From positions 1 through 38,287 of the forward strand of contig RXOD01003904.1 in assembly GCA_005223375.1 (NCBI GenBank): a stretch of 38,287 nt of DNA, read 5' to 3'. Below are positions 2,016 to 34,965 of this stretch, piece by piece. The translations under genes were made by a program, and so were the position numbers. The notes below the pieces were generated by a model, which was not told the DNA's origin, did no database searches, and saw only the letters and a list, made by a program, of their open reading frames with translations. Each line of letters opens with the position of its first letter. Position 1 is the stretch's first letter. Origin of the DNA: Amoebophrya sp. AT5.2 (Eukaryota > Sar > Dinophyceae > Syndiniales > Amoebophryaceae).

Positions 2016-3683
2016 CTACACGCGCTGGTTTAGCAGTGCGCCGGAGTGTGCTATACCTTCAGTTCTTTGTTCATGTTGTTCATTTAATGGGTGCGCATAC
2101 GGCGTGGTCGTTCTCTTTCTGTTCATTTTCGTCTCGCCAAACTGAAGTAGCAATGCGAGTGCCACCGCGAATCCGGCCGCAAGTGCGAGCGGAGGGAATA
2201 CAAACGCCGAGTAGGTGTCCGCATTTCGCCGTCCCATGGTGACATTCCTTGCCTCCCATACCAAAGACAATCCAATGACGGCCCCCATCACGGCAATTGA
2301 CGCAGCCTTGCCGGAGCTGAGGGATGGAAGTACTCTGCGCTGCAAAAAATACTGCGTCTTGGCCTCCCTCTCCCAGACTGTGCACCTCGATGTTGTACTT
2401 TCGGCTGAGTGGAGCTGGAGGGGGTCAGACCCTAACTCTGCACTCCTCGTATTCGCTTCTCGAATCGTGTCCACCGCTGCACGCCCATCGTCCGGTCGAG
2501 AAGATGGCCGGCCTCCCACGCGGCTCGACGTCCACGCCCTGACCGCTGCTATCGCCACTGTTGGCACCAGCAGGAATATCGCGAACGGCCACCAATGTGC
2601 GGTCACGGTCACGAGCAACAAGATCGCCACCTTGCGGTGCCAGGTCTGGAAAAGCGCGCGACCTCCAAGTCCGAGCGGTGCAGCTGGGGAATGCCGCCAC
2701 CACGACAGCGCGGCGAGCAGAAGCACCAGCGCGAAGCACAACAGCCCCGTCAGGTAGATCAAGTTCTCTCCGTCGCTCAGGTCAGAAATCATCCACACCT
2801 CCTTGCGATACACAAACCAGATCAGCTCGCCGCCGCCGTGCAAGACAGCCAGAAGAACCGTGCTCCAACCTACGAACTTGTGCATCCCTAACAGCAGGCG
2901 ATGTTGGGGATGCACAAGTTCGTGGGCTGGAGCAGCCTCATTATTTTTTCCTGCTGCTGCTTTTGACACTGTCTTGGTAATCGCGGCAGCGGCGGAGAGG
3001 AGCGCGACGACACTCAGGTGCCACGACAGTGGATACGCGGCCGTGATCGCAAAAGCGAGTACGCGGTAGAAAATGTTTTTCTCGAAAAACTCGGCGGTCT
3101 CGTACTGGAGCAGCGGTAGCGCGAACCAAAAAACCGTGAGCGAAATCCACACTTTTGTGAACAAACCCAACAGCCACGCGGCTCTTTGTTCGTGCTTCGC
3201 GTTGTTCCCCATCTCTTCAACATCAGCGCTCCCGAGGGCATTCGCAGTGGCCGCTTGTCCACCTTGTTCTACTTCCCCCTCGCCTCGCTGTCGAGTCGGA
3301 AATGGCGTAATTTCACGCACTTCTTCCTCTGCGCCGGCGGCCAAGCCCCTCCTTCCCCACGCCGTCGCGCAAAGGTGCAACACCAGCCACCGCCCGGCGC
3401 ACCCGACAAGCACCGGCAGCGTCCAGGCGAGCAGCACTACCAGCGCGAACGGGGTAAACCCGAGGAAGGCGCCTTTGCGGAAGCAGTAGGGCGCTTCGGC
3501 GCCGCCCGCCGTGGTCCCGCAACCATCGTGCTCGTCCCACAGGTTGCAGAGGCCGCCGACCCCCCCGACGCCCCCCACGTCGTTCGCAAACCCGTAGTGC
3601 TCGAGGAAAACGAGCCGCAGGGGCTCGTACAAAACGGACACCGCCAGAAAACTGCACGCAGAAAGAACAGAAAGCCAGATCAT
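2016..3683 (-). CDS. Ferric-reductase-type transmembrane protein (bis-haem, no flavin domain)
   Basis: A single-exon 555-residue membrane protein. The first 30 residues form a signal anchor (MIWLSVLSACSFLAVSVL), followed by several hydrophobic segments. Two His pairs with 13 residues between them sit at about residues 257/271 (MHKFVGW...AVLHGG) and 348/362 (WHRKVAI...TAHWWP). This is the bis-haem ligand arrangement of ferric reductase-like transmembrane domains (NOX/FRE/STEAP superfamily). In that family the domain carries electrons across a membrane, usually from a C-terminal FAD/NAD(P) module. Here no flavin or nucleotide-binding domain follows; the protein ends with another membrane segment and a polar tail, so it may need a partner reductase or work like a cytochrome b-type protein. 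A 28-bp inverted repeat overlaps the first haem helix (see 2861-2934). The ATG is the first in the frame. Confidence 0.82.
   Translation of the reverse strand: MIWLSVLSACSFLAVSVLYEPLRLVFLEHYGFANDVGGVGGVGGLCNLWDEHDGCGTTAGGAEAPYCFRKGAFLGFTPFALVVLLAWTLPVLVGCAGRWLVLHLCATAWGRRGLAAGAEEEVREITPFPTRQRGEGEVEQGGQAATANALGSADVEEMGNNAKHEQRAAWLLGLFTKVWISLTVFWFALPLLQYETAEFFEKNIFYRVLAFAITAAYPLSWHLSVVALLSAAAAITKTVSKAAAGKNNEAAPAHELVHPQHRLLLGMHKFVGWSTVLLAVLHGGGELIWFVYRKEVWMISDLSDGENLIYLTGLLCFALVLLLAALSWWRHSPAAPLGLGGRALFQTWHRKVAILLLVTVTAHWWPFAIFLLVPTVAIAAVRAWTSSRVGGRPSSRPDDGRAAVDTIREANTRSAELGSDPLQLHSAESTTSRCTVWEREAKTQYFLQRRVLPSLSSGKAASIAVMGAVIGLSLVWEARNVTMGRRNADTYSAFVFPPLALAAGFAVALALLLQFGETKMNRKRTTTPYAHPLNEQHEQRTEGIAHSGALLNQRV
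2861..2934. repeat. Coding-region inverted repeat (28-bp arms, 18-nt loop)
   Basis: Arms 2861-2888 and 2907-2934 are reverse complements with two mismatches. On the coding strand the downstream arm encodes GMHKFVGWS, the conserved haem-ligand helix, and the upstream arm encodes PAHELVHPQ. The downstream arm is therefore probably the original and the upstream arm its inverted copy. Confidence 0.93.
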
Positions 3684-4109
3684 GCTTCCATGCCATCAGA
3701 TGCTGCGTTTTTACTGTTAAGTCCTTAAGTACTCCAAATGAATCTGGTTCCTTTCCATGAGCGAAGAGGAAGACGAAATGAAAAGATTGAAACTTCTTCT
3801 TGGTCGGTGTTTCTGCACCTCGTCAAGGATCTGCTCCCTCCATCGTAGGAAGATCCGCTCCAGTCGCTCAAGCCAGAGCCCTGTGCATGCCATGTGCTGT
3901 TGTTGATCTCGTCAGATGACGTTTTATATTATACGCGCGCAGATGAACTTCAACTTGAACTCGAGCTTCCTCATCCTCGCGCTCGCTCTTACAGGGAGCT
4001 AGGAGATGGAGAAGCGACGGAGAACACAACTCCCTCGCGTCAAAAAATTCCGACTGCTCTCGTCCATGCACATCCACCTCCTGGATTTATTGGATATTTC
4101 TCGCTTTCG
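3684..4109. other. Intergenic stretch, no gene recognised
   Basis: About 430 bases between the START gene stop and the ferric-reductase-like ATG. Short frames only. It presumably carries the 3' UTR of the START gene and the 5' region of its downstream neighbour. Confidence 0.4.
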
Positions 4110-6356
4110 TCAGTCAAGCCCGCACAGGTTTTCGACTAGTTCTCGCAGTCTTTCTTTTGGTATTGGTTGCACCGGCTCCTTCGCCATGAATTTCTGGCAC
4201 TCCTTGTTCAATTTCTGTGCCCACTGCCTCGGTATGCTCGCGACCACGAGAGACACCGCCGCGCTCGGGATGCTGCCCCCCGGATTGCTGTCCGTGATCG
4301 CGCGGAATTTGGTGGTGCCCGGAACTCTATGCAGAGGAAACTATTGTCCCATCAGACCCATCGCTCATGAAGAAGAACACGGTCACCGACGGACCTGCCG
4401 ACTTCTAGTCGTAGTCTCTCGTTATGGCTACCTGTGAGCTACGGGGAGCTGCCGATTGGCAACAGGCGCCTTGATTCGGAACCCGAGCAGAAGCTTTCCC
4501 CCATACTAAGCTGTGTCCCAACAATGACACGGCTTGGCACCTACGACCCACCGCCACCCCAAAGGAAAAAATAACAATAAGTACGTCCCGGGCCGATTGA
4601 TGCCATGATTCGGTCTGGGACCTATTTCCTCTGCATACACCGGGCCGGGCTCCAACGTGTTCCCGCTCATGAAGACGTTGACGCGGACCTGCTTCCCCGT
4701 CGGCGGGTAAACGTGGTCCCGGGACGCAGTGCTCCGCTCGTACGCCAGGTAGGGATATCTGTGGCGCGTGGGAGTTTCCGCGAAAAGAAAAACTTTGACT
4801 CACTTTCAGCAATTATTGCCGCATTAGCATAACACCCATCGTCTATATCCCGGAGCCGCTCGGCGATGAACTCACTGTCGCAATACTTATCTTGGGGGCG
4901 GTGCGGAGAGCTCGATGTTCGCTATCACTTCGCAAAGGCAAACTCAAAACCAAAGAAATATGGAAGAATACTTGAACGCCGGCACGCAGCGCGAGTCTCT
5001 GTAGCGGATGATTTCCCGGTTGCTGAAGCCCATCACCGGGGATTTGATGAGCACGCGTTCGATGCCCCGGTAGTAGTCCCCCTCGATCATCTCGTCGAGC
5101 AAGAAGTTGTCCTCCCACTGCATCCTCAGTTTCACGTTCTGCACCAAATGGAACACAACTTCGGGCGGCGCCTGGATCACGCTCTCTGCGCAGAAGAACA
5201 GCACGCGCTCGGGCTTCATCAACGCATTCACATTTCTCATCGAAGATTTATTTTGGGGGAGGCGGTTGGGGTTGTGCTTCTGATTCGGGTTCTGCTTGCC
5301 GATGTTGCTGACCCTCGCCCAGTTCGAGTTCAGCGAGGACGAAGACGATGACCCCCCCAGGGTCAGGTTCGGGTGCTTCATCGTCGTCCCCGGGCCTCCC
5401 GCGGCGCCCCCGGGAGATAGTGTCGGCGATCCGGGGCACGACAGCGCGCCAGCTTCTACCCGTGTTGAAGCACCTCCTCCACCACCACCGTCACCTCCTC
5501 CTCCACCGCCGATTTCGATGAACCGCTTCCAGACCCTGCACTCGGCGCGGTCCAGGGCGAGGGTCCACTGCTTCTGGTTGTTCTGGAAGTAGTCCATAAA
5601 CTGCAGCACGTAACCGATCTCCTCGTCGGGGTGGAGGGGAGTGGCCACACGGGTGGCGGTCGGCGTGTTCATCATGTTCAGCAACGAACCAAAGCCCCCA
5701 CGACCACTTCTACTCGTCTCAGAGGAAAGCAGAACCTGTCCCGGGGACGCCGGATTGTACTCATACGGAGAGTAGTAGGCACCACCTGAGCGACAGCGAT
5801 CGATATTTAATCTTCGAGGAATTTTCATCGAGGGAAGGGAAACCGACCCCATCATGACTACTACTCATGATCATCAGAAGCTGCATATTCACTTGTTTTA
5901 TTGTAGCAGTGTTTTAGTTTTTTAGAAGGTGAAACAAGGCCCCCCTCGTCTCCTCGCTGTAGACGTGCACCAGGTGTCTACTGGCTACTGCGGCTTCCGT
6001 GTTTAAACGAAGACAACAGAAGCCCCTCGACAATAAAGAACAAGCCAAAGGAAGGCACCTCTCCGCAGTTCCTCTGCTTCGGAGTCCTCTTCTCGCACCG
6101 AGTAGAAGACGTCGCTGTCGTCGTCCTCGCCACCATCTGCGTCGGAATAGCTGCCGGCGGTCCGCCACCCGGCCTGGAATCCGCGGCCCGCCCCGCGCTT
6201 GCCCGCCTTCCCGCCTGCCCGGCTCAGCCGCCCTCCCTTGGCCCCTGCTGACGTTTTGCCACCGCGATTGGGGTCCACGCCCACCTCGGCCGGAGTGCCA
6301 AAAGTAGAGCCCCGGCTGCGCGCCTCACGCAGCGAACCGCCGAAACAACACGGCAT
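4110..6356 (-). CDS. START-domain lipid-binding protein, four exons
   Basis: Exons 6356-6059, 5785-4972, 4758-4585 and 4326-4110 join with matching phases to 501 codons including TGA. All three introns (273, 213 and 258 nt) are GT-AG. The N-terminus (MPCCFGG) leads into a Gly/Arg-rich stretch and an acidic patch (DADGGEDDDSDVFYSVREE). A linker with poly-Gly and poly-Ser follows. The C-terminal half resembles a START domain: AESVIQAPPEVVFHLV, WEDNFLLDEMIEG, MGFSNREIIRYRDSR, VRVNVFMSGNTLEPGP, then TKFRAITDSNPGGSIP and a C-terminal helix (VSLVVASIPRQWAQKLNKE). START domains bind a single lipid or sterol in a hydrophobic pocket for transfer or sensing. No membrane segment is seen, so it is probably cytosolic or peripheral; the N-terminal Cys pair could be acylated. 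The first-exon join (6059/5785) is the least certain, though both sides have a GGTGCC-like boundary and the phase fits. Confidence 0.78.
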
Positions 6357-7027
6357 CCGGCGGCCGAAGGAACGGAACGAAGTATAAAGGAGCTTCGTAA
6401 GTTTAAGTAAGAAGTAAGTATGCCTCTAAGTTTGAGAACTTGCTTCTACTGCTCGCTCGATTTTTCTACAACCAAGAGTATAAAAGAGTGCCGTGTAGCA
6501 ACAGAAAATCAAATTTTCCTACGATTGCACACCGAGGATCGACAGGGGGTCCGTGGCAATTTGCAGCATGTGCAAGGACAGGCAGGGACACTCAGGTCAT
6601 CACCGCCACCGCCCCGGTGAAAAATTATAAATAAGCGATCCGAAGCAACAAAAAACCAAATAAGTAAAGTAGTTGGTGCCCGCTTCCGCCCAGTTGTGGA
6701 GGTATTATAATGCAACCGTCCGCGTCAGACTCAGTTTGTTCCGAGTCAGCCAAATAGTATGAAAAGGTACTGGTGCTGCTCCTGCTGCGCCAAGATGCCC
6801 TACGCCCGTTCCAAGCGTGAAGTTGAAACGCAAGGTACGACAACCGATGCTGTACATCTTGGTTCATCACAAGCGGTGACTACAACACACGACCACCGCG
6901 AATCGCGTGTTTAAAAAAGTACTCATCTTGTGCGGCCGCGCCGGCGTTCATTCCAACTTCAATTCCAATGCAATATCACATCGGACAGAATGCAGCTTTG
7001 CTTTGCAGAATGTGAATTAATAGGTTT
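6357..7027. other. Intergenic stretch, no gene recognised
   Basis: About 670 bases, more AT-rich than the genes beside it, between the kinesin stop and the START gene ATG. Repeated GTAAGTA-like strings occur at 6400-6420. No convincing exon. Confidence 0.4.
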
Positions 7028-10000
7028 TCACTGCGACTGCCCGCGCGAGGCAGAGCGCATCCGCTTTGTGGTTGCCTCGAGATCGAGTTTTATCCGGGGG
7101 AGGGGTCGGGACCTTGTTGTGCGGGGACCACTGCTCCCACCTCCGCCGGTTGTAATTCCACCACCACGTTGCTTAGAGACCAGGTCCACCTCCATCACCC
7201 CACCTGCAATTGTGGTCGTCGAGGATCCGGCCACCGACGCTGTAAGCGCGCTGCTGGTTCTTGATCTTGTTCCGTCGGAATGTTGATCCTGTTGTGCGGG
7301 GGCGATCATCTGACTCTCAGCACCGCCTGCCGCTGCGTGCCGCTGCTCCTGCGGATGATCCGATTTCGGTGGATCCACGATTTCTACAGGTTGTTGACCA
7401 CGACCTCGCGCTGCAGTCGCCGCGGCCGCGGGGTAGTGCGATTTCTTCTTCTGCTGCGGTTGCTTTCCCGATAGCATGGCGGCTTGCAACACCTCCAAGG
7501 ACGGCAGCGCCTTCCGGGCGGCTCCTGAAGTAGAAGTTGCAGAGATTGCCCCGGGCGTTTTGACGGCGCGAGCAGCCACTTGCGCTGACTCGCTGCTCGC
7601 GCCGTCGAGCTCGTCTGGCGCGACGAGGGGGCGCGTCTTCCTTGGCTCATCCGTCGTGGTCTTCCGCTGTCCTGCCCTCACAGGCTGCACCAGCACAGCG
7701 TCATCTTCCACCTGTACAGCGGCTACTTCTGCATCGGTCGGGGGTACTTCAACTTGTACATGTACTTCTTCAGTCACTAGATCTGCAGAGGATAGCAAAT
7801 CCGGAGTGGGTTCCGCGGAATAGGGTGTGAACCGGGTTCGCCTGGCCTTCCGCCGCCGCTCAATTACCGCGTCCAAGTGCTCCTTCATCTTCTCCAAATC
7901 CACCCGATCTTGCTGTTTTGGGTTGTCGTCGACGATGTTGTGGGTGTGCTGGCCGCCGCCCTCAACCTCGTGATCGACATCTTCGAGATCGTGTACGTGT
8001 TCGTCTCCCTCAGCCTCGGACGGCAAATCACTTCGGTTGATGCGCGTCAATTCTTCTTCTTGATCTTCTTGTCCTCGACCCGGCGTTGTTCTTTGCCGAG
8101 GGAGGGGCGCAAAAGGCGGAAGTTTCTTATGCTGGTGCGCAGCTGTCGCAGCGCCTCCGCCTGATGTAGTCGTGGCCCGTGAGGACGACGAAGCGGAGGA
8201 TCCGCCTGTCTGCAGGAGCCGCTGGTGCGACAGAACGTCCGCTCCTCCTGGATCAAGGACGGTCGCTGTTGCAGCTGGTGGGGGGATTCCCGCGGTTAAA
8301 AGCACGGTGTTCGGCGTACTGAGCTGCCTCGACGACGGCACCTGTTGCAACGGCGTGCCGGTGCCGCACGTCGACGTCCCGGTATAATTACCTCCTCCGC
8401 GTGGCGACATGGAGGACCACGGGGACATGCCCCGCCGCTCCATGCTCGAAAAAGCCGCGTGCTTGATCAGGTCCTCGCTCAGATTTTTCTGCCAGGCAGC
8501 GTACTGCCGGAGGCCGCGAATCTCGTCCAGCACCTGCTTCGCCTTCCCGCCAAGCGCCGGATCAGACGCGAGCACACCATCAATGGATCCAGACAAAGGG
8601 GGCGGAAGGGTAGACCTGGAGAATTTCGCGAAAAAAATCACCGACAGAATCGCACGAGTAAATCACCGTCGCACCTGCAAGATGCTGCACAGCACGTTTG
8701 TATCATCACACGGCGATCAAGAACATCAACATCAAAGAACAATACTTACACTGTCGTGCTGGTAGTGGAAAAATTTGAAAAAAAATATTGATGTGCCGGT
8801 AGTGCTACTGCTACTGCATAAATATAGATACGCGTCGCTGCTTGTCGCGACCTCGACGGCTTCGAGAAACTGGGTAACGAAGGCCTTTCCCCCAATAGAG
8901 TCGGTAGCTTCGTCTCCCGCTGTCGATCGATATCCTCTTCCGCCGGCGAGTCCTGATGAAGATGATGGCGCTCCTCCTGGTAGTCCTGTTGATGGCGGTC
9001 GCGGGGGTTTCAGTGCGTGCGCCAGCTCGATTGGCCTCATCTGTTGATGGCCTTCTGACGACGGGCCAGTCAGACCACGCGGCGACGGCGGGCTGGTCAG
9101 AAACAGGGCCCCGACTGCCGAATTCTCGTCGAAGAACTGCGTCTGATCCGTTACGATCTTGGGCAATCCAAGGCTCGCCCAAGATCGTAACGGATCAGAC
9201 GCAGTTCCCTCTGCGTCCGGCTCCGCCCCCGCGCCCGCCGCGTCTTGGAGGTTTATTGCGGTTGCCTGCTCGTTAGTCGCGTCGAGGGCGACGAGAGATG
9301 TGGTCCTAGTACTTGTGCGCGACGACGACGAGGGGTCTTGCATCATCATGATGTTCAACCGAGTGGGCTGTTCTTCGGATGACATGTAGTTTCTTGATGG
9401 GTGTGTCATGGCCGCTGCAACTCCATTCCCATTTTCGCTTCTTTCTTCCCCCGAGCAATCCTCTTCCGCTTCATGTTGATCTCTTGCGCTTGCACCGAAC
9501 ACGGCTGGCTCCCGAGCTAGCGAGGAAGCACCAGGATTAAAGGCCCCACCACCAGCACCGACCGCCGCCGGGGGGGCCGCGGTCGTTAAGAAGGACTGCA
9601 CCAGTCGCTCCAGCTGGTTTTTCTCTTCCCGCAGCTTCACCACTTCCGCGCGCAGTAAAGTTACTTCTTCCCCCGGAGGCGGACAAGCCCGCCCGTTCTC
9701 GGAGGCGGACAAGCCCGCCCGCCGCGGCTGGACGATTTTTTTGCACCGCGCGGCGAAGCCCAGCGTCGAGACCGTTTCCGAGACGCTGTGGCGCTCGCGA
9801 CTCACCGTGCACAGTACCCGCACGCGGCTCGGCCACCGCATGGCGTCCCAGAGGAGTTTGGTCAGCTTCGACTCCCGCCAAGGGACGAAGCCGCGAGAAG
9901 TCTGCGACTTCGACTTGGCGAGGGAGTTTACCACGTTGCCCAACGCGGCCAACGACGCGTTGATGGCCTTCGCCTCGCTCATCTTCCGCTCCTGGTCTTC

Positions 10001-11330
10001 AAGCAGATTCCCCCCCACGTTGGTTCGCTCCGACCCGGCCAAGTCCACCAAAACGAGCCGGGACCACTTGTTCGCTCTCTCGTCACCAGGCTGTGTCTGA
10101 TGCAAGGACGAGCGCGACGAGGAGGAGGCAGCGCGGCTTCTGCTTCTTTCCTTCCTCGGAAGCAACCCGGGCTGCAGAAGATGTGCCTCCGGTTCTTCCT
10201 CCGCACCAACGGTTGCAGGAGGATCAGGAGCTTCTCCTTCGGAAGTTGTCGCAAGCGGTACTTCTAGATCAAGATCCTTATGAAGATCTACAACTTGGTT
10301 ATTTCCTCGCTGCCGCACGTGCAGCGTGAGAAGCACGTGGCTGCGGCTGGAGAGGTGCTTGCTGAGGCCCAGCAGTTTCAGGTCTTCGTCGGTGCGCGGC
10401 GCCAGGTGGAGGCCCAGGTGGCGGTGGTCGGCGATCTCCGCCAGCGGCGTGCCGGCCGACGTCCGCAGGTGCACCTCGCCCACGTAGCGGTTGCGTAGCG
10501 CCAGGTCCAGGATCTCTGCCGCGTCGGCGTAGGACTCCACCTCGACCAGAGTGCTGCCCTCGACCATCACCCCCACCCCCGGCACCTCGCGCAGCTGCAG
10601 CTTCTTGCCGGCGCAAAACAAGTCGTAAACCTGGTCCAAATACACCTGCAGAAACTCCAGACGCACCTCCACATTTTTGGGAGTAGATGAAGATGATCCA
10701 CCTCCCAGCAAGGCCGCGAGGCAGAAGGGCACAATCCCTCGCTGGTCGGCGGCTTCACAATGTCCGGGGCCCTGCGGCTGGCCGCCGAGTAAACCCATGG
10801 TGTGCGTCTTGCCACTGCCCGTCTGGCCATAACAAAGCACAGCACCCGTGTCGCCGCGAACAACCTTGAGAAAAATTTCGATCACCGGCATTCGACTCCG
10901 ACATCGACCTGAGTTGGGTCCTCAGTAAGGGAGGAGCTCGTCGAGCAGCGCTACAAAACCAAAAGCTTCTAGATATTGCAGCTACAGACGAGCGAGGGAG
11001 GAGAGCAAAATCGAAAAAGTCGTAGAAGAAGTTCTGAGAACGCGGAACCTGTTGCACGAGGTTTCCGACGAACTGCTGGGCGACGGCGTCGTTCGTCGCG
11101 GTGGGGTGAAACACGTGGTCGAACGCGTAGTCGCGATGCTGCTGGCTCACCGGCGACTCCACGCGCACGCATTTCCCTTCCGCAAACACGAACGGTGTTG
11201 CGCCATCCCCGCCCGAGGTTGACGTTGAGGAGAGACACGGCTTCAGACGCACACCCACCTGCACAGTCGAGGAGCCCCTGCAGCTACCGCCGCGTCGAGC
11301 CACAGAACTGCTCCGGGAAGAAGCAGACAT
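7028..11330 (-). CDS. Kinesin-like motor protein, N-terminal motor, three exons
   Basis: Exons 11330-11042, 10908-8832 and 8615-7028 close in phase to 1318 codons. Introns are 133 nt (GTTCTC...CTCAG) and 216 nt (GTATCT...CTCCAG). The motor is at the N-terminus: QVGVRLKP near residue 25, AFDHVFHP, P-loop GQTGSGKTHTM (about residue 125), switch I SSRSHVLLTLHV (about 285), switch II LVLVDLAGSERT (about 386), then INASLAALGNVVNSLAK and WRESKLTKLLWDAM. All nucleotide-contact motifs are intact, so an active microtubule ATPase is expected. A short heptad-like region follows (LRAEVVKLREEKNQLERLV), then long Ser/Gly/Pro-rich disorder. Exon 3 begins with a short helical part (AKQVLDEIRGLRQYAAWQKN). The subfamily cannot be told. 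A 31-bp perfect inverted repeat lies in the disordered tail. The exon 1/2 join follows phase and GT-AG only; GTAAGT at 8746-8741 is an alternative donor for intron 2, but its phase does not fit. Confidence 0.9.
9134..9207. repeat. Coding-region inverted repeat (31-bp perfect arms, 12-nt loop)
   Basis: Arms 9134-9164 and 9177-9207 are perfect reverse complements inside kinesin exon 2. Both arms are read in frame: the upstream arm gives TASDPLRSWA and the downstream arm LPKIVTDQTQF. Perfect identity implies recent origin or active maintenance. Confidence 0.96.
9675..9721. repeat. Short direct duplication in kinesin coding region
   Basis: A 21-base unit (GGAGGCGGACAAGCCCGCCC plus G) occurs at 9675-9695 and 9701-9721, just after the motor domain. 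It encodes Arg/Gly/Cys/Pro-rich sequence. Probably replication slippage. Confidence 0.85.
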
Positions 11331-15907: not shown

Positions 15908-18364
15908 TCACGTGGGCGGCTGTGACATGCCTTCGCTTAGTTTCCTCGAAATGAGTGCAAGCACCTCCGGATCGGTCGCAGCGTGCAACAAACGGTCGGC
16001 CGCCTCGCCGAGCGGGCAGTCGTAATCTTCTCCACCTTCCATGCCAAAGTGCGTCGCCACCCCAAACAGCTCCGTGCATCGCGTCATCTGCCCGTCTCGT
16101 CGCGGCCGACGCAAAGCGTTAGTACTCTTACTACGGCCTTTCGCTTTATTCGTTGATGTCCTCATCTCTGCTGCTGGAGGAGCCTTCTTCCGTTTCCTCT
16201 TGTTCCTGCACGTGCCATCAAGCTGATCGCTACCCGAGGACTGTCCACCAGCAGCCTCAAGAACATCAGACTCCGCCCCTGCTTCAGAACAATCAGAGGA
16301 GGACGAGGACGTCGGCGCTTCTTCTAGAGACCACGGCGGGCACCGGTGCCTTCTCCCCGCTTGGTCCTTCCTTTTGTTCAGATTCAGTCCCACGACCCCC
16401 GCACCCCCCGCCGCACCCCCCTGCTCCAAGTGCTCGGCGTAACGCGTCGCCAGTGCGCCCACGAGGCAGCGGCAGAGGCTCTCGGTTTTTTTTGCGTGGG
16501 AGTCAAGGGAGTGCGGCACCCACTGGTTCAGCGCGAGGCAGGCTTTGTCCACCGCGATAGTAGCGTGCCACCAGTGGCGGGGAAGAAACAAGAGGTCCCC
16601 AGGGTTCAGCAACACCGTCAGGGGACGCTGTAGTTGCATCTCCAACAAGAGGCTGGCCTCGCTCGGTGGCGCCGCCGCGAGAGGTCGTTGCTCAGGCGGG
16701 TCCTGCTGCTCGCAGTCTTCCATAGTCACGTCCTCGTCGACATGGTCTTCTTCGTCGATGACGCCGCTGGTGCTAGTGTCGTCTTCGTGTTGCCGTTGCT
16801 GTTGTTGCTGTTCTTGCGCTGAACAAGATGCGCGCTCCCACGACGTCGACCGAAGCTGCGGGCTCTTGGTTTTTGTTTTGGTCGCTTTGCCCCCCGCAAT
16901 GCCAGCCCTTCCACCTCCTGGAACTCCCTGAAACCGCGGGTCGTCCCCTTTAACATCCTCCTCGTCCAGCTGCGGGATCTTCTTGGACAATCGTCTCCGT
17001 TCTCTGTCGATGAGTCGGTAGCTTTCGACGTACTCGGCGAGCGAGTCACCGACGGCTCCGTGCGAGAAGACGGTGGTTTCTTCGAACGGCAGGCGCGTCT
17101 CCGGCATCAAGACCTCCACGCGGCTGGTGCCAACTTCCGCAGCAGGAGCTGGAGCGTTTGGTGGGAAGAGCAGCCACCGCTTCCGGCCGTGGAGCTGGAG
17201 GATGTAATTGGTGCCAGTGGTGTCGTAGTGCAATCGCGAGCTGCTTCCCGCCGTGCCCGCCCACAGGCAGGGGAGCGACTCGCCCAAAAGTAGCTGCGCT
17301 TCATCCTCTTCTTTGTTGTTGTTCTCCCCCACGAACAACTGCCTCTGATGGTGTTGTTCCGGAAGTAGATCTGTTTTTTTGATCATCGATTCTTGACTTC
17401 GACTTCTAGTACAAGAACTTCGGTGCTTCCTCACTACTGGACGAAACAGCTTCGCCTGGAGCAAGCGCGCCTTCCGTCGTTGATCGGCGGAGAAGTCAGC
17501 GTCTTCCACGCCCCCTCCTGCCCCCGCCGCTCCACAGGGTCCGCAGGCTTCGTCCAGCTGGCAGTAGTCCAGGTATCTCGCCGTCGAAGCTGAACTTGCT
17601 CTTGCAGGTCCTCTTGCAGTACGATAGCTAGACTCGCAGCTGTCCACCGACGACGTGTCGCGGCGCAGAATGGCTTCCACGAACTTCCTGATCCGCACCT
17701 GCTTGGTCTCGCAGGCGGTCTCCCATGGCTGGAGCTCCTCCCAAAACGCGGCGTCCTCGAACAACGCGACCTCCATCCGCTCGTGGTCCTCCTCCTCGCG
17801 GCCGCTGGAGGTGCAGTTGGACATGTTGGAGGACAAGGAGGACGTCGGCGAAGGGAACGCCTTCTCATCTACAACAACGGGTAGGGGTACTGATGTTGTA
17901 GTAGTCGTGAATGGGTTCAGCTGAGGACCAGTTCCATCCACTTCGTCTACTTCGCCGTCGAGAACCAACAGACCACTGCTCAGGCTGGAGGTGGAGACGT
18001 CCTGCTGTTCCACTTTAGATGGAGATTTTACATGTGGCCGACGAAATTTGCGACGCCACTGCCGCAGCTTTCCCACCGCGGATTGCGGAATGGCGTCAAG
18101 GACTTCGCGAACGACCGCGGCGCACTCGTTCGCCCTCGCCGCGTCGGCCCCCAAAAATCCTTTGCGGACGGTCGCTGCATCAGGTTCAGACGAGCCTCCG
18201 AGGTAGCGGCGGACCACGTAGGGGGAAAATTCACACACCTCCACCTCGTGTTCGTGTTCGAGAGCTGTTCGAGAGGTCGTCCGGGAAGTAGTTTCCACCT
18301 CTGGGAGAGAAACTACTGCGTCCCGGACGACCTCTCGAACGTCGGCCAAAAAGGCAGGCACCAT
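15908..18364 (-). CDS. JmjC/cupin_8 Fe(II)/2-oxoglutarate oxygenase-like protein
   Basis: 818 residues from the ATG at 18362-18364 as one open frame. The jelly-roll core has SSRLHYDTTGTNYILQLHGR followed by KRWLLFPP, giving the metal-binding H-x-D near residue 378. After a long insert, NPGDLLFLPRHWWHATI near 598 holds the distal His, followed by ALNQWVPHS. This is the cupin_8/JmjC pattern of protein hydroxylases and demethylases such as the JMJD7 and HSPBAP1 relatives. All three iron ligands are present. About 200 residues between the two halves are low-complexity (acidic, Gln-rich), as are the N-terminal linker and the basic C-terminal tail (RNKRKRKKAPP), which could be a nuclear signal. The N-terminus holds the inverted repeat 18267-18340. 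Upstream small exons are possible (see 18420-18786). The target is unknown. Confidence 0.8.
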   Translation of the reverse strand: MVPAFLADVREVVRDAVVSLPEVETTSRTTSRTALEHEHEVEVCEFSPYVVRRYLGGSSEPDAATVRKGFLGADAARANECAAVVREVLDAIPQSAVGKLRQWRRKFRRPHVKSPSKVEQQDVSTSSLSSGLLVLDGEVDEVDGTGPQLNPFTTTTTSVPLPVVVDEKAFPSPTSSLSSNMSNCTSSGREEEDHERMEVALFEDAAFWEELQPWETACETKQVRIRKFVEAILRRDTSSVDSCESSYRTARGPARASSASTARYLDYCQLDEACGPCGAAGAGGGVEDADFSADQRRKARLLQAKLFRPVVRKHRSSCTRSRSQESMIKKTDLLPEQHHQRQLFVGENNNKEEDEAQLLLGESLPCLWAGTAGSSSRLHYDTTGTNYILQLHGRKRWLLFPPNAPAPAAEVGTSRVEVLMPETRLPFEETTVFSHGAVGDSLAEYVESYRLIDRERRRLSKKIPQLDEEDVKGDDPRFQGVPGGGRAGIAGGKATKTKTKSPQLRSTSWERASCSAQEQQQQQRQHEDDTSTSGVIDEEDHVDEDVTMEDCEQQDPPEQRPLAAAPPSEASLLLEMQLQRPLTVLLNPGDLLFLPRHWWHATIAVDKACLALNQWVPHSLDSHAKKTESLCRCLVGALATRYAEHLEQGGAAGGAGVVGLNLNKRKDQAGRRHRCPPWSLEEAPTSSSSSDCSEAGAESDVLEAAGGQSSGSDQLDGTCRNKRKRKKAPPAAEMRTSTNKAKGRSKSTNALRRPRRDGQMTRCTELFGVATHFGMEGGEDYDCPLGEAADRLLHAATDPEVLALISRKLSEGMSQPPT
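18267..18340. repeat. Coding-region inverted repeat near the start of the JmjC-like gene
   Basis: Arms 18267-18286 and 18321-18340 are perfect reverse complements of 20 bp. They are extended by 18287-18294 pairing with 18310-18317 after a 3-nt bulge. The loop is about 15 nt. Both arms are read through in frame (VREVVRDAVV and ETTSRTTSRT). Confidence 0.93.
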
Positions 18365-27687: not shown

Positions 27688-29013
27688 TCAGCAGCACGAC
27701 GAAAAGACAGCTTGCAGGGATCCCGGCGCCTTGTAGTCCCCACACTGTTCCCCGACAAATTTTGCGTCGCCGTCATAGCCACTCGGCTTTTTGCAGCAGC
27801 GGTAGTGGTAATACGTGTCACCGTTGTCTTTTGTGTAGGTCGCGCCAAGCAGGACAGCCTCGCCTTGTTTGCACGAGCAGGGCTCCGACGTGGAACCCGC
27901 CCAACAGTCGTTGCCGCCTTCGACACTGGGGGAAAGGCACCAGTCCTCCGAGCACTGATCTTCGTCCAAATCCTTCAACGCGTGAGGATCGTCCTCTGTG
28001 CAATGAATTGATTCAGTGCCCTTTTTATCTCTACGCTTGAAAAAGAAAGCAGAGAAAGACTACAGGATGAAAAAATTGTAAACATAATAGTCATGATGTC
28101 GTGGTGCACTTCTGAAAAAGTTTAACGCGGACCAAAAGGAACAGACAAGGAAGAAAGAACTTTTCGTCAAGCTCCCGTCCTCCTTCGATAGCGAGTCATC
28201 CTCGAACATAAAATCCTCCTTGTTCTTCCCCTTGTAGTCCCCACAGTGTTCCCCAACGAACTTTGCGTCACCTTTATAGCCAGCCGGTTTTTTGCAGCAG
28301 CGGTAGTGGTACGCCGTGGCGTTGTCGAGGCTAGCAAGGGTCATGGTCCCGCCCAGCAAGACAGCCTTGCCTTCTTTGCACGAACAGCCGGACATGGAAA
28401 CACCCGCCCAACAGGCCGTCCCGCCAACGCCATCGGAGGCAGTGCACCAATCTTCCGAGCAGTGATCCTCCAAACCCTTCAAAACGTCAGGATCGTCACC
28501 TGTGCAATAAATTCAATTGCATTGATGACGATCTACCCTACTCGGGGCGTCAAGATGCCTCCTCTATTTTTAGAAGAGGCGTGTTCGTTTGCGTGGTTTC
28601 TCTGTTGCATTAGAAAAATTAAGTTCAACATACTCATGCTTGAAAGTGAAGGACCGAAAGAGGAGCAAACTACTGATAAACAAAATATGTCGCGCACTTC
28701 TGAAAGGGAGCGACGTGGACCAAAAGCAAGTTACAAGAAAACAAGAAGAACTTTTCGTGTAATGGTAGCCGCTCCCTTTCCGCCCGTCCTCGATGATACT
28801 TTTTCCGTCTGCCAACGTTTTGGGAAGAAAACGCACATCGCCAGTCGCGGTCATCGCCACGTGGCTTTTCTTCGCGTTCGAGCTGTGCATCTGGAGCACG
28901 GCCCTGCCCGTGGACTTTTTCCTGCCACCCGAAAGCCGGGCGTAGACGCCAACGGCTCCCAGCATGACGCCCAGACAACCCGACCGCACGAGCTCCCTGA
29001 AGATAGCGACCAT
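27688..29013 (-). CDS. Secreted cysteine-rich protein with two tandem-duplicated domains, three exons
   Basis: Exons 29013-28752, 28499-28161 and 27995-27688 join in phase (1/1) to 303 codons including the stop. Exon 1 begins with a signal peptide (MVAIFRELVRSGCLGVMLGA). Exons 2 and 3 each encode one copy of a domain of about 80 residues: CSEDWC, GG-x-x-CWAG, CSCK-x-G-x-AVLLG, YHYRCCKKP-x-GY-x-GDAK, FVGE-x-CGDYK, with eight conserved Cys probably forming disulphides. The copies share most motif residues but differ in the loops. Both introns (252 and 165 nt) begin ACGAAAA|GTTCTT and end ATTGCACAG, so intron and exon were duplicated together; the 1-1 phase of exon 2 allows such repetition. No known family is recognised. 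A secreted, disulphide-rich, duplicating protein may have an outside-facing role, but this is inference. Confidence 0.82.
28557..28580. repeat. Small hairpin inside intron 1 of the Cys-rich gene
   Basis: GCCTCCTCTA and TAGAAGAGGC pair, with one mismatch, around a TTTT loop. It is absent from the homologous intron 2 and may be the scar of an insertion that made intron 1 longer. Confidence 0.6.
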
Positions 29014-29327
29014 TTGCCTGTGGCTGTGGTAGGCAGCTAGGTTTCGGAACCGAAATTGATTAGCCGTAGATGTTGTATGTAAGTAACAACAAGTAGCAAC
29101 GGCTGACGGAGCACTGCTTGAGCTTGCGCCAAGATGGCTTTATGGACCTCCTTTATGCCGCAGACTGTTTGTTTCACACGGAAAACCCGTTTTGGCGGCC
29201 CAAAAAAAAAATTATATCTCGCGCGGATGGTGAATGTGTATGTGATGGATTTGGTTTTGGATCTTTCGATCAACACGACTAGCAGGGTAGTGACTCACTT
29301 TTGTTTGGCTTTCACTTCCCAGATTCG
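29014..29327. other. Upstream region of the Cys-rich gene
   Basis: About 310 bases immediately before the Cys-rich gene ATG. No exon recognised. It presumably contains the promoter. Confidence 0.35.
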
Positions 29328-29661
29328 GCTTCTTGCTTCCGACGGAGAGACTTCTTCTCATCCCAAGCAGATGACAAAGAAAGGAACTACGGAAACACAC
29401 GGGGAGAGAGAGCATCGAACAGAGGATCCTCACGAAGATCGCCCACGAGGATCGACCGCACCTCCACGTCTCCCACGCGTTCGCTACCCCGCCGCACCCG
29501 GGGCCCCAGTACTACGTTCCCTTCCTCCAGAAGCTATCAGCCCCTGCATCGATTGTCGGTCATCCCCATCCCTGGACAGTCCACGCCCTTGCCCAAACAT
29601 CCCCGTGCGTCCGCGCACGGGGCCAGCAGACTGGCGGAGCCCGCATCCGCGCCTTCACCTT
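29328..29661 (+). CDS. Possible plus-strand Ser/Arg/Pro-rich exon (tentative)
   Basis: From CTTCCCAG at 29320-29327 to CTTC|GTGAGG at 29661 one plus-strand frame stays open with GC-rich third positions and encodes a Ser/Arg/Pro-rich stretch (RSPTRIDRTSTSPTRSLPRR). A good acceptor follows at 29691-29706 (TTTTTCTTCAG). No start codon or upstream exon could be joined in phase, and the product is low-complexity. An overlapping plus frame (29134-29769) has an ATG but poorer codon bias. It would be the only plus-strand gene in the window. Confidence 0.25.
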
Positions 29662-29755
29662 CGTGAGGTCTTTCCTGTCCTCTGTCATCGGATCTTTTTC
29701 TTCAGCGCTTTGAACAACGGTTCCTCGAAGATCGCCCACGAAGCTCGACCCCACT
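29430..29755. repeat. Direct repeat of about 28 bp
   Basis: CGAAGATCGCCCACGA followed by a related GACC end occurs near 29435-29462 and 29727-29752, with a few mismatches. It falls in the tentative plus-strand region. Confidence 0.7.
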
Positions 29756-29993
29756 CAGACTGTTCATAGGTCTCAGTGGCATTCATCGAACACGGGAAGC
29801 AGCGAAATGACCGATACGAACTAGAAATCAAAAGGGGCGCGGAACTGCGGCGTGGATCTTCCGGTCAAAGAATGTAAAACAGACATACTTATCATGACAG
29901 TAGAAGACTTCTACCGGGGGATCAATTCAACAGAGCATAGGTAGAGCGCAATTCGTTTTCTTGAGAGCTATAGCTGCTCATAGCACGTTCTCG
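29662..29993. other. Intergenic stretch, no gene recognised
   Basis: About 330 bases before the stop of the next minus-strand gene. Only the second copy of the 28-bp repeat is notable. Confidence 0.35.
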
Positions 29994-31805
29994 CTAAGAA
30001 ATCTCGTGGGCCATCGGGCGGCGGGCCCAGCGGGAGTAGGTGACCCAGGTGAGCGTGTTTTTGTCACCGCTCAGCAGCCCGACCTTCTTGTCGATGTGCA
30101 TCCCCTCAAGTAACGAGAACCGGATTTGCTGCCGCCCCAGGTTTCGGCTTGCGAACGCACCCCCCTCTTCGATGACGATCTTTTCCCGGCTCCGCTCGTC
30201 CTCCCACAGCCCCGCCACGATAGCCGCGTTCGCTCTTTCGACGATGAGCGAGGTGTTGTCAGCTTGTTGTTCGTGTCCTTGGTGCTGTCGCAGCGCTTTG
30301 TACTTTGTGACCGGGAGGTTTTGCGGCTCCCACGGACTTTTCCGCTGCCACGTGACCGCCTGTTCCGGTCGCACGTCGAGCCACAAAATTTGATCCTCTG
30401 GAAGAGGAAGTCTAGAGGTATCATCGTCAGCGCCGTCAGAGGTCATGCTGCTACTGTTACTCCTGGACAGCACGCCGTGGTAGTGCGTCCAAAAAACCTC
30501 CCTCGACGGGCGGGGAGTTAAGTCCCTCCCAGCAGCAGTAGGACAAACCGTACAAAGGCAGCCGGTTTGTTTCTTTCCGCCCACGGAGACCTCCCCTACC
30601 CCGTTCACGTGGACGTGCAGGTTGAAAGGGTGCACGTCCCAAAAAGTGTTCTGCATCCACTCCGCCACGGGTTGCCGCTTCAAGTACACCACGCTGTCGC
30701 GCTGCCAAGTCACCCACCCTCTCTCTTTTACAGCCCCCGTCGCTGTTGTGGCGCAGCGGCGGAGGTGCGCCCGGAACACGGGGTGCGTCTCGGGGTCGAA
30801 CCACCGGTGGCGGAACACGCGCAGCGGGATGGATCCCTGATGTTCCGGTGAGGCGGAGGAGGAGGACGCCGAACCGCCCCGATCCGTCGCCACCCGATCC
30901 GCCACGCGGCCCTCTTCCTCCTCCACCTCCGCGAGGTGCCACTGCTGGTCGTGTTGGTCGCAGCTGCTGGTGTTTTTAGTTTTACTGCTGCTCTCTTTCG
31001 CCTTTATATGCGACTTCGCATCGTCTACCGCCGATGTGTGGTCGGCGGGACTAGCGTCACCTGGGAACAGAGAGTCCAACAAAGAGTCCATCCGCTCCAC
31101 GAGAGCGCGACCGCCCCGCACCTCCAGCACCTTCACAAGGCTTTGTTGGGCGAGCGCCACCAGCTTCTCGCTGTCCAGGGATTCCTTCGCCCGCATCAGC
31201 AGCCCCTTGCTAGCCATGTGGGAAGGGACGAAAACCTCGAACAACTGCCCGACTTTCGGCGGAGAAAACCGCACGATTATTACAGAAAGAGGAGCAACCC
31301 AGAAATCGATCGGCCGCTTTCCTACGCCTAGAGCGATGAACTCCGGCGATGTTGAAAGAGAATACATATACTTACAGCCTTACAGCTACACCGGGTCGTT
31401 TTTACTACTCGACCAATTTTTGCCAAAGTATGGCCAGACTACAAACACATACGAAAAACATAGCCTATTCTTGGCAGCCACAGCAGCGGCCCCAGCCCGT
31501 ACAGCGTAACCAGCGGCGGGGAGAAGAGGCGATGTCGAAAGGGTTGCTCCTCTACTTAACACCAGTCTCTCGTTGTGTAGCAGCGTGACCGGACCGGCGG
31601 GCGATTCTCGCTGCGACGCCAAGTGGCCGGCCAACTGCAGCAAGGCCCGTGGGTGCGGCCTGTTCTTGCTAAGCACCTTCTTGTCGCCTTGAAGGCCATG
31701 TTTTTTGTCGGCTGGACTACTTTTCGAATCTTCATTTTCGAAAAAGTCCACGTCGAAGCAGTGTTTCACCGCGTCTGGCCGCAGGTCTATGGAGAGGGTA
31801 CAGAG
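29994..31805 (-). CDS. Uncharacterised protein, 5' end unresolved
   Basis: I do not recognise a family. The main exon (about 31244-29994) encodes EVFVPSHMASKGLLMRAKES, a helical part LVALAQQSLVKVLEV, an acidic linker, then WFDPETHPVFRAHLRRC, WMQNTFWDVHPFNLHVHVNG, VFWTHYHGVLS and a C-terminal block ending SRWARRPMAHEIS. His- and Trp-rich pieces such as HPFNLHVHVNG and WTHYHG could bind metal, but no signature is clear. An upstream exon (about 31805-31503), supported by GC-rich third positions, encodes LRPDAVKHCFDVDFFENED through LLHNERLVLSRGATL. A GT-AG intron 31502-31245 joins them in phase 0, though other acceptors (near 31330) are possible. Upstream of 31805 a TTCACAG acceptor suggests a further 5' exon that I could not find; an ATG reading MGGSLARFW near 32107 is one candidate. 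Confidence 0.6.
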
Positions 31806-32178
31806 CTGTGAAGTACTACAGCAACTTCTATGAAGTAGAAGTAGAACCTGCTGGGTTTCTAAGGCTGGCGAAACCCACGCGCACTGGAGTGGTGTACCCG
31901 GCGCCGGGAGATGAGCTATTGGGAGGGGGGTATCTAGAGCAGTGAGTCTTGCTGATATTAGTAGGGAGACGTGAAAACCAATTGTACCCCAATACAGCTG
32001 AGGCTGCACGAGACGCTTCGGCGTCGTAGAAAGTTACCTATAGGCAATCGGCAGTCTGGTTTCGCGGTACAAGATTCAATCAATCATCGCGCCAAAACCG
32101 CGCCAAGGAACCCCCCATCGACCCCCTATCGACAACCCACCCTCGCTCCCAACTCCAACACACGGACCTTTTTATTTT

Positions 32179-34965
32179 TTATACTTCATTTATAAGTACT
32201 TCATCGGCACTTCGCAGCTGTGGGCACCAGGTGATAAGGTCCTCCAGGGACTTGTGGGGTTGCGCGTTTTGGGTCTGGAGCCCCTGCAAAAACCCCCTGT
32301 TCCACATTCGAAAGGCCCGCAACCGGTCCCCCGGCGTTCTTCTTCCGGCTGCCACGTCACCGCCGCCTGCCAAAGGTGGCTCCGGTTCAACCTCCTCCTC
32401 TTGCCCAACATCAAAACTACCAACAAAACTACCGTCTTCGAGCGCGGCTCTGCCTCGCCCGACCGGCACGATGTGGAACTCCGCTGTTGATGACGCCGGT
32501 GCCTCGCCGCGTTGCAGCAGTGCGTCCTCCTCCAGGAGTTTGAGCATCTCCGACTCATTGTCGGAGGAGGAGGTTCCCCCCACAACAACATTTTCCTGTG
32601 TTTCCAATTCTCGGCCGCCCCCCCAATATTCCGCCGCCCCTTCGCTCCTCCTCTTTTTCGTTTTATGGTCTCGTCCCCCCAAACGACTCCCCGCCCGGCC
32701 GCTGACGGCGGAGGCGGTTTCCGCGTTTTGGTCGTTATTAACGACGTTCACTTCCGGCTGGAGCAGCTCGTAGGGGCCGAAAACGTCCCGTTTCCGCCGG
32801 TTCCAACGCGCCCGTGCGTCCCCGAGACTCGCATGCTCCTCGCGCGTCCCCCAAAGCAGTTTCCGACGTTCCCCCGCCAGCGCCGCCTCCGCGGAGTAAC
32901 CCTTTCCCCGCCTCTTCCAGTCCGTCGGCGGGGGAAGGAGGCCCTGTTCGTGAAGGAGGCCGAGGAAGTGTGTCAACACTTCCTCGGCCTCCTTCACAAA
33001 CAGGGCCTCTTCGGCCGGGCTGCAAAAGAGCCGGCGCTCCTTCGGGCGGGTTGGGGCGGGGGCGAAAAACGTCTCCGACGAAGAAGATGAGAGAAGGGCC
33101 TGCAAAAACGTCCCGCCACCCCGCGGGAAGGGGACGCCCGCGCTACGCGGCTCCTGCTGGTTGGTCTCGAGCAGGCCCAACAGCTGGCGCGCGGCTATAC
33201 GGTACCGCTTCTCGCTCGTCCTCTTCTCGCTCGTCCTCTTCTCGCCACTACTCGTCGTAGCTGTAGCTGCTGTCTCACCGGGTGCTTCTTCTAGGGGGGC
33301 GCGAACGAAGTTGTGCAGCCACGGAAGTGTCACTGGGTAGGTGGTTGCGGGTGGCTGCGAAAACGAAGCCGACGCCCCGCCAGCCGGGGCTCCGGTGGAG
33401 AGTTGGGGTGGTTGGCTCTGGTCGCCGGCTGCGTGCGGGGTGGGAACAGCGGCGGACAGCAGTCTGCGCGCCGCGCTGAGGGCGCCCCGCCCGGCCAGGA
33501 AGGGTCTGCCGCCAGCACCCGCGGCAGCCGCCGTGTTCCCCCCCTTTTTCGGCAAAAGCCTTTTTCGGCAAAACCGGAGCCGGGAGTTTTCCAGCAACGC
33601 GGCGCACAGCCGACGCCGGTACCGCAGGTTTTCCGCTCCCCGCCGAGACAAAACCCGACGCCGACTCAGCGCGAAGAGCGACTTACTCCTGTTTGTCTCC
33701 TCCTGGTCGCGGGGCAGCTGCTGCAGGACCCAGAACTTCCTCGTCGGTCGGGGACCCACTACCTCCTGCAGTGTCGTGGGGTCGTCCACAGTACGTTCCG
33801 CTGAAGTGTAGGGCGGTTCGCCCGCAGCCTGGGTCCAGCGCAGGTTGTGCCGATTCTGCTGCAGCCAGCGTTTTAGCTGTAGGTCCGGGGTTTGTACTTT
33901 TTGGCATAAAATCTCGGCTTCATCTGGTAGACCCCCGCCCAAAACAAGCTCCCCCACCACAGCGTCGAAGAGGGCGTCGATGCGAAGCCCTGGAATGCGT
34001 TCCGCCCTCCCTCCACGGGAAACGACCCACTCCGGCACGCGGAGCAGACTGCACACATCCTCGCCGAGCTGCGCACGCAGAACGCGCTCGGGATCTGCTT
34101 CGGCCGCTGGTGTTTGGGGTGGCGGGAGGCGCGAACTAGATGCACTCGCAGCTGGTGCGCCTCCTGATGTAGTTCTTGTGGCTGCTGTTCCTACGGCCAG
34201 CACTACGGGCTGCACTTGGAAGGATCCGTCGCTCTCCCCCACTCGCGTCTTCCTCCCGATTGTGATGGCGTACTTGACGGCTGCTCGAAGGGTCGTGGAG
34301 GGTTCCGAAGTTGCGTTCTGCCCAGCACTGATATGCAGACGGTCCTCGACACCCTGTCGAGCATCGGATAGAACACTCTCCTCGAGCGTGTAAAAGCCGT
34401 CCGCGCGCTGGTACTGCTTAGTGCAACCAGAAGAACTACAACGCTTGCCCCCCTCAAAACGGCGGTAACGGCCGAAAGTGGTCGAGTGCGAGTGGTCCAA
34501 CCCCAGTGGATAATTACCGCTGGACGAGGGTCGGGCGACCTCGGCATGCCGCTCCGCGTCCCGCCGCGCTACCTCCAGCCACTCCTCCGGATCGGCGACG
34601 AACTGCCAGGAAGCGGCTGTCGCACCCGGTCGGATGGAAGTCCTCACCACGTCAGAGTCAGAGCTCACCCGGTGGAAGCTCCGACTGCTTTCCGCGTACG
34701 CGTAGGTCCCGTCCAGCTCCGGACCGCCGTTGCATACGCGCACGTGCCGCAGTAGGTTGCCGTCGAATTCGATCTCGGGAGAAGACCCGCCAACAAGAAC
34801 CGGCGTTTCCTCCGGAGGCGCCACCTGGTCCGTGGTCTCCGGTGTCGGGGCTTCTGCGAGGAAAACGGCCGCCGCGGCCCCTGTCCGTTGGGGGGGGTCT
34901 TGCGGGGGGCGCAAAGCTCCCCGCCCCGGCTTCGTCGCAGGACGAAAAGCGAAGGAGACCGTCAT
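32179..34965 (-). CDS. Large uncharacterised protein, one open frame
   Basis: 928 residues from the ATG at 34963-34965; no family recognised. The N-terminal part has VRVCNGGPELDGTYAYAESS and ASWQFVADPEEWLEVARRD. The GGPELDGTY piece resembles an nGTY-type motif I associate with dinoflagellate proteins, but I cannot name a domain. The middle holds EDVCSLLRVPEWV and IPGLRIDALFDAVVGELVLG, then a very basic stretch with Arg runs (ALSRRRVLSRR, RYRRRLC, RKRLLPKK) and Ala/Gly/Pro linkers. SEKRTSEKR is a short tandem duplication. A helical part (EEALFVKEAEEVLTHFLGLL) coincides with a 34-bp inverted repeat. The C-terminus has DRLRAFRMWNRGFLQGLQT. No signal peptide or membrane segment. The Arg-rich centre suggests nucleic-acid or ribosome contact, or a nuclear location; this is inference. 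Confidence 0.7.
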   Translation of the reverse strand: MTVSFAFRPATKPGRGALRPPQDPPQRTGAAAAVFLAEAPTPETTDQVAPPEETPVLVGGSSPEIEFDGNLLRHVRVCNGGPELDGTYAYAESSRSFHRVSSDSDVVRTSIRPGATAASWQFVADPEEWLEVARRDAERHAEVARPSSSGNYPLGLDHSHSTTFGRYRRFEGGKRCSSSGCTKQYQRADGFYTLEESVLSDARQGVEDRLHISAGQNATSEPSTTLRAAVKYAITIGRKTRVGESDGSFQVQPVVLAVGTAATRTTSGGAPAASASSSRLPPPQTPAAEADPERVLRAQLGEDVCSLLRVPEWVVSRGGRAERIPGLRIDALFDAVVGELVLGGGLPDEAEILCQKVQTPDLQLKRWLQQNRHNLRWTQAAGEPPYTSAERTVDDPTTLQEVVGPRPTRKFWVLQQLPRDQEETNRSKSLFALSRRRVLSRRGAENLRYRRRLCAALLENSRLRFCRKRLLPKKGGNTAAAAGAGGRPFLAGRGALSAARRLLSAAVPTPHAAGDQSQPPQLSTGAPAGGASASFSQPPATTYPVTLPWLHNFVRAPLEEAPGETAATATTSSGEKRTSEKRTSEKRYRIAARQLLGLLETNQQEPRSAGVPFPRGGGTFLQALLSSSSSETFFAPAPTRPKERRLFCSPAEEALFVKEAEEVLTHFLGLLHEQGLLPPPTDWKRRGKGYSAEAALAGERRKLLWGTREEHASLGDARARWNRRKRDVFGPYELLQPEVNVVNNDQNAETASAVSGRAGSRLGGRDHKTKKRRSEGAAEYWGGGRELETQENVVVGGTSSSDNESEMLKLLEEDALLQRGEAPASSTAEFHIVPVGRGRAALEDGSFVGSFDVGQEEEVEPEPPLAGGGDVAAGRRTPGDRLRAFRMWNRGFLQGLQTQNAQPHKSLEDLITWCPQLRSADEVLINEV
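32938..33009. repeat. Coding-region inverted repeat (34-bp arms, 4-nt loop)
   Basis: Arms 32938-32971 and 32976-33009 are reverse complements with one mismatch, around GTCA. On the coding strand they encode EALFVKEAEEV and THFLGLLHEQGL, both amphipathic helix-like. This is nearly a perfect palindrome and the tightest of the four coding hairpins. Confidence 0.96.

Follow-up and report, generated by a model that had tools for sequence, protein, structure and literature searches.

The window analyzed in this study is the whole of contig C108, 38,287 bases long, within a draft genome of 50.7 Mb in 2,759 contigs. Judged by its sequence, the window comes from the nuclear genome of an Amoebophrya-like, syndinian-type parasitic alveolate that is distant from Amoebophrya sp. 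A120; the best named relative of its first protein is from Amoebophrya sp. A120 and is 39% identical across 91% of the query. The eukprot models g12000, g12002 and g12007 share long exons with the window genes, in the same order and with other predicted splice ends. Because these models match both the genes and the gene order of the window, they are probably models of the same genome. Coding segments were called with a codon-usage hidden Markov model (HMM) trained on 61 long frames, and all of those in the window lie on the minus strand. Gene clusters that run in a single direction have been reported for Amoebophrya (PMC7789003), and the all-minus-strand coding across 1-38287 resembles them.

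An earlier note on this DNA had described four long inverted repeats inside open frames, and two repeat finders recovered all four (2861-2934, 9134-9207, 18267-18340 and 32938-33009; hereafter hairpins 1-4), with spans of 74, 74, 74 and 72 nt, respectively. Hairpin 1 has 33-nt arms that pair at 30 of 33 positions around an 8-nt loop. Hairpin 2 has a perfect 31-bp stem and a 12-nt loop (94% when taken as 36-nt arms), while hairpin 3 starts with a perfect 20-bp stem that continues past a 3-nt bulge into an inner stem. The 34-nt arms of hairpin 4 pair at 33 of 34 positions around a 4-nt loop. The stop-free frames that host hairpins 1-4 are 559, 729, 835 and 939 codons long, so that all four are indeed read through without a stop, as had been claimed; hairpin 3 is near the 5' end of its frame, and its coding status therefore hinges on the start codon. 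Rfam, searched over the whole window at the gathering threshold, returned no match. The genes and hairpins are listed below.

2016-3683, minus strand: gene of hairpin 1, encoding a Ferric_reduct-like transmembrane protein (Pfam match under the cut-off)
2861-2893, minus strand: shared (native) arm of hairpin 1, the 3' arm in gene sense, encoding the stretch LLGMHKFVGWS, which is present in P0001
2902-2934, minus strand: new arm of hairpin 1, the reverse complement of the native arm, encoding approximately APAHELVHPQ
7562-7606, minus strand: a fifth, shorter hairpin with perfect 15-bp arms and a 15-nt loop, within a 544-codon frame
8732-10891, minus strand: gene of hairpin 2, encoding a kinesin (Pfam PF00225, E = 2.4e-55)
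9134-9207, minus strand: hairpin 2, past the kinesin motor domain, in an exon of gene model P0050
9134-9169, minus strand: 3' arm of hairpin 2 in gene sense, tentatively native by codon scores
9172-9207, minus strand: 5' arm of hairpin 2 in gene sense, tentatively new by codon scores
15908-18364, minus strand: gene of hairpin 3, encoding a JmjC/cupin-8 domain protein (Pfam PF13621, E = 1.6e-16)
18267-18340, minus strand: hairpin 3, with the 20-bp outer stem and bulged inner stem, right after codon 8 counted from the first ATG of the frame
32179-34965, minus strand: gene of hairpin 4, family unknown (no Pfam match at E = 0.01), with the relative P0049
32938-32971, minus strand: new arm of hairpin 4, encoding THFLGLLHEQGLL in place of SCV of P0049
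32976-33009, minus strand: shared (native) arm of hairpin 4, the 5' arm in gene sense, encoding EALFVKEAEEV

The hairpin at 7562-7606 was missing from the earlier list. In the gene of hairpin 4, the model P0048 treats approximately 34100-34330 as an intron and thereby leaves out about 74 residues; because the protein of P0049 includes them at high identity, this predicted intron is probably spurious.

Abundance and genomic distribution of the hairpins

The hairpin census covered 318,287 bases, made up of the window and of 28 further 10-kb stretches drawn from 19 other contigs, with an arm score of at least 14 and a loop of no more than 80 nt. It returned 18 hairpins, compared to one in ten third-order Markov simulations (about 0.1 expected), and none were returned when the first 228 kb were simulated with a first-order model under a stricter setting. 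The claim that the hairpins are beyond chance is thus borne out. Eleven of the 18 have arms of at least 20 nt (four in the window and seven in the other 280 kb), which corresponds to approximately one such strong hairpin per 29 kb; as the census was tuned to long arms, this is a measure of the frequency of long arms and not of a shift in the distribution of tract lengths. The window, which was chosen for its hairpins, has four strong ones against 0.96 predicted from the rest of the sample (p = 0.016), an excess that is not explained by a uniform process. At the same threshold, 200 kb of Escherichia coli K-12, a bacterium and hence a poor control for a eukaryote, contained four hairpins, all of them outside annotated genes according to the gene tables; none reached a score of 18, compared to nine in the 318 kb analyzed here.

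Elsewhere in the sample the spans ranged from 29 to 98 nt, and 6 of the 11 strong hairpins span 71-79 nt. A fixed length, whether of an element or of a read-length artefact, had been considered given the 72-74 nt found in the window and was dropped in view of the 29-98 nt found elsewhere. The similar total length in the window would also suit MITE-like mobile elements with terminal inverted repeats that were inserted in exons. A search of the 50.7 Mb that scored the best candidates, however, found none of the four window hairpins a second time, and the 18 hairpins have only short words in common, the best being 12 nt (L021 vs. L028). Clean target-site duplications were absent from the 18 hairpins, and one arm of hairpins 1 and 4 is native gene sequence. 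We consider such insertions extremely improbable. Membership in a MITE family was rejected for the four window hairpins, for which the multiple copies typical of such a family were not found.

The HMM assigned 64% of the 318-kb sample to coding segments; in five shuffled stretches, it assigned 0%. Coding segments wholly contain ten of the 18 hairpins, and 11 are in a stop-free frame of at least 300 codons, the eleventh being that of L021 (452-codon frame). The hairpin of L011 straddles the end of a coding segment, and the other six are outside coding segments. Both hairpin 3 and L012:3041-3089 count as coding here while being close to the 5' ends of their frames, and either might precede the true start. 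Exon enrichment was absent (11 of 18 vs. a coding share of 64%, two-sided binomial p = 0.81); nor was any clear depletion in exons seen among the 18 hairpins of this 318-kb sample. The observation of the earlier note that intergenic DNA lacks hairpins of this length is true of the window but does not extend to the rest of the genome: 7 of the 18 hairpins, including some with arms of 35, 27 and 24 nt, do not fall within any stop-free frame that reaches 300 codons.

The hairpin at L003:1453-1550 belongs to a region where near-palindromic words recur in a cluster, and it may differ in kind from the other 17. The cluster, at L003:1276-1783 in non-coding DNA, consists of 23 interleaved inverted-repeat pairs around the near-palindromic word ACCTTCAGAAGGT. 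Inverted repeats with longer loops (at least 25 nt, span up to 450 nt) are also in excess, with 14 that have arms of at least 14 nt vs. 0.9 in simulation, and part of these 14 belongs to the L003 cluster. Mostly non-coding DNA also contains two perfect inverted repeats, one with 32-bp arms around a 340-nt loop (L014:6401-6804) and one with 30-bp arms around a 179-nt loop (L019:9621-9859); they may be introners or older foldbacks. In the window, a perfect 13-bp inverted repeat at 31288-31553 surrounds a 280-nt gap with coding segments of the same frame on either side, similar to an Amoebophrya introner, and L012:3098-3489 has the same introner-like layout with arms of 19 bp.

Comparison of the two arms with relatives

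Orthologues were available for hairpins 1 and 4 and were compared as proteins. The close relatives P0001 and P0049 carry the source label lgn, which we take to denote Logan assemblies. In both cases the protein of the relative keeps one arm and is without the other, in line with the expectation of the earlier note that an alignment of orthologues would identify a missing arm. For hairpin 1, P0001 (91% identical) retains only the protein of the 3' arm, which is also found, less exactly, in P0003 of Amoebophrya A120 and in P0004; the new 5' arm was not seen in P0001, P0003 or P0004. The alignment reads VRNIDA-GGPYNT-HRLLLGMHKFVGW in P0001 and GKNNEA-APAHELVHPQ-HRLLLGMHKFVGW in the window (the hyphens are our reading), such that about ten new residues replace six (GGPYNT in P0001), and the stretch between SKA and HRLLL differs by a net three residues. 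For hairpin 4, P0049 (92% identical) retains only the 5' arm, as EARFVEEAEEV vs. EALFVKEAEEV of the window. Here P0049 has EEVL-SCV-PPPTDW and the window EEVL-THFLGLLHEQGLL-PPPTDW, with thirteen residues for three. The event thus brings in new residues, as the earlier note had it, and also replaces native ones; the 18-25 new residues per hairpin given there were too high, the new arm amounting to about 10-13 codons. In the protein alignments, collinear native sequence flanks both hairpins on both sides. The outgroups support gain of the new arm in this lineage for hairpin 1 only, and the difference at hairpin 4 could be either a gain or a loss in P0049.

For hairpin 2, the 14 kinesin relatives included one that is probably a model from this genome itself and 13 distant ones, without useful coverage of the hairpin. 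Codon scores for native vs. new arm were computed on 10 coding hairpins. They were in line with the orthologue for hairpin 4 (8.3 vs. 2.8 bits) and weak for hairpin 2 (3.2 vs. -1.2 bits). As they could not separate the arms of hairpin 1 (-1.3 vs. -1.1), they were not relied upon.

The alignments bear on whether the hairpins are RNA structures under selection in mRNA, e.g., a translational or processing signal. The predicted RNA folds of hairpins 1-4 are very stable (-54, -64.3, -55 and -71.9 kcal/mol; z-scores from -9.3 to -15.8), which would suit such a role. The structure is, however, missing from the closest relatives found for both of the hairpins that could be compared, the hairpins have no sequence in common, and coding enrichment is absent; selection for RNA structure is therefore highly improbable as an explanation.

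Whether the hairpins are introner elements, i.e., the non-canonical introns of Amoebophrya that bear inverted repeats and are spliced out, was considered as well, as the organism is a relative of Amoebophrya, the introners of which bear inverted repeats of 8-20 nt that can form hairpins and have direct repeats of 3-5 nt at their borders (PMC7789003). Gaps between coding segments that are bracketed by inverted repeats of at least 11 nt were also found (2 of 91 vs. 0.27 expected), while those with repeats of at least 8 nt showed no real excess (7 vs. 5.2 expected). Against this reading, the relatives have the residues that the shared arm encodes at hairpins 1 and 4, and excision would remove them. 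Given that the shared arm encodes conserved protein, hairpins 1 and 4 are not introns. The predicted models P0002, P0050 and P0048 likewise retain hairpins 1, 2 and 4, respectively, as exon, and the whole span of 72-74 nt is almost all stem. Exact direct repeats of at least 3 nt abut none of the 18 hairpins, including none of the five in the window; with offsets of up to 4 nt, the 18 hairpins yielded a single 7-nt border repeat and five 4-nt ones, all at hairpins outside the window. It is thus very unlikely that the hairpins themselves are introners.

The two arms of a hairpin are not always exact copies, with three mismatches in hairpin 1, two in hairpin 2 and one in hairpin 4. All four arm differences of hairpins 1 and 4 are at third codon positions and synonymous in the shared arm (p of about 0.01 under a transitions-only model), while the same changes would be non-synonymous in the new arm and one of them a stop. 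This pattern fits a copy that was made some time ago and whose source has since evolved under protein selection. Other hairpins were mixed: hairpin 2 and the hairpin of L029 each have one mismatch that is synonymous in the 5' arm and one that is synonymous in the 3' arm and thus favor no single arm, the sole mismatch at L012:5999 is synonymous in the 5' arm, and the two mismatches at L020:2313 are synonymous in neither arm.

The mismatches also address the concern that the hairpins are foldback chimeras from library preparation or assembly. The assembly is a draft in 2,759 contigs, and foldback chimeras do occur in whole-genome amplification. That the mismatches of hairpins 1 and 4 are synonymous in the shared arm is, however, evidence against an artefact. 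Moreover, the native strand and frame resume on both sides of the hairpin in the alignments of hairpins 1 and 4, and all four window hairpins are held in long open frames. An artefactual origin is consequently quite unlikely.

Template switching as the probable origin

Each hairpin is probably the footprint of a short-range template-switch mutation that occurred in DNA replication. During DNA synthesis, the nascent strand would quit its template, about 33-36 nt would then be copied in reverse, either from the nascent strand itself or from the nearby opposite strand, and synthesis would rejoin the normal template slightly further along. Such an event would leave one arm with the original gene sequence, and the other arm would be its reverse-complement copy that replaces a few native codons. 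Coding and non-coding DNA would be hit alike, and within genes those events that preserve the frame would be retained, after which the native arm would keep evolving under protein selection and thereby acquire synonymous mismatches. The polarity of the arms at the protein level for the two hairpins compared, the open frame and the occurrence of such hairpins elsewhere in the genome are observed, while the switching, its strand and its trigger are inferred. Because the flanks are collinear on both sides, two switches, one out and one back, would have been needed. In gene sense, the new arm precedes the native arm at hairpin 1 and follows it at hairpin 4, which suggests opposite-strand events. 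The earlier note had proposed a shared mechanism and offered two candidates. Template switching agrees with the absence of one arm from the relative at both hairpins compared, and a class of insertions specific to exons does not agree with the 10-11 of 18 hairpins found in coding DNA vs. a coding share of 64%.

Short sequences shared around the hairpins were found as well. Of 36 flanks, taken within 25 nt of a hairpin, 10 share at least 7 nt with it, compared to 3.4 expected from random flanks or 4.4 from nearby flanks; this excess is modest, and L003 contributes two of the 10. At hairpin 3, CTCTCGAAC of the gene-sense 3' arm recurs 2 nt past the end of the arm. Together, the flank sharing and this repeat are suggestive of microhomology at the switch points.

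The stop-free share of the antisense was determined for 4,124 coding 36-mers of this genome and is 78-83%, depending on the frame. As the antisense is mostly stop-free, the main filter on such events in genes would be whether the net change is divisible by three.

Relation to known systems and meaning

Template switching of this type is already known. In great apes, 4,017 significant events were reported under a four-point model, which often create inverted repeats and a net length change; their tracts are 12 nt long at the median and 128 nt at most, and the events are depleted in coding DNA (PMC7954356). The hairpins described here are similar to these events in being a reverse-complement copy of local sequence. 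They differ in that their arms reach 31-36 nt, with only long arms having been searched for, and in that coding depletion is not visible. In Saccharomyces cerevisiae, template switching at inverted repeats is reported to alter amino acids in coding genes, with arms of 7-16 bp and no more than five neighboring residues changed per gene, indels being left aside (PMC8604942), in contrast to the arms of up to 33-36 nt and the 10-13 new residues found here. A single template-switch event can form a perfect stem in RNA genes (PMC8794818), whereas the hairpins of this study are in protein-coding exons. Long inverted repeats inside coding sequence are also found in the mitochondria of Nematomorpha, where coding palindromes reach 284 bp and both arms encode conserved protein (PMC6649704); in contrast to those, the genes here are nuclear, and at hairpins 1 and 4 a single arm is shared with relatives and the other is new. 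The introners of Amoebophrya come from the same lineage and have inverted repeats, but they are introns with direct repeats at their borders (PMC7789003), while the hairpins here are exonic. Among the matches listed, neither the titles nor the openings of the abstracts pointed to template-switch hairpins in syndinian coding DNA, which does not prove their absence in print. With the type of mutation already known, what stands out is how long the arms are and how densely they occur in nuclear coding DNA.

A broader possibility is that this lineage has an active long-tract foldback process that regularly writes in-frame protein, and that the same process supplies the hairpins for the inverted-repeat introns, in which case the exonic hairpins would be the unspliced counterparts of newborn introners. 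The long-tract part of this proposal rests on the 6 of 11 strong hairpins that span 71-79 nt, and we regard the proposal as a whole as unlikely.

In the papers cited above, template switching that gives rise to inverted repeats has mostly been described from short events; in this genome, it appears to produce arms of more than 30 nt in nuclear genes of a parasitic alveolate. Given that the reverse complement of coding DNA is about 80% stop-free per frame, the process can supply segments that are ready to be translated, and hairpins 1 and 4, as compared with their relatives at the protein level, are probably two documented cases of new protein sequence.
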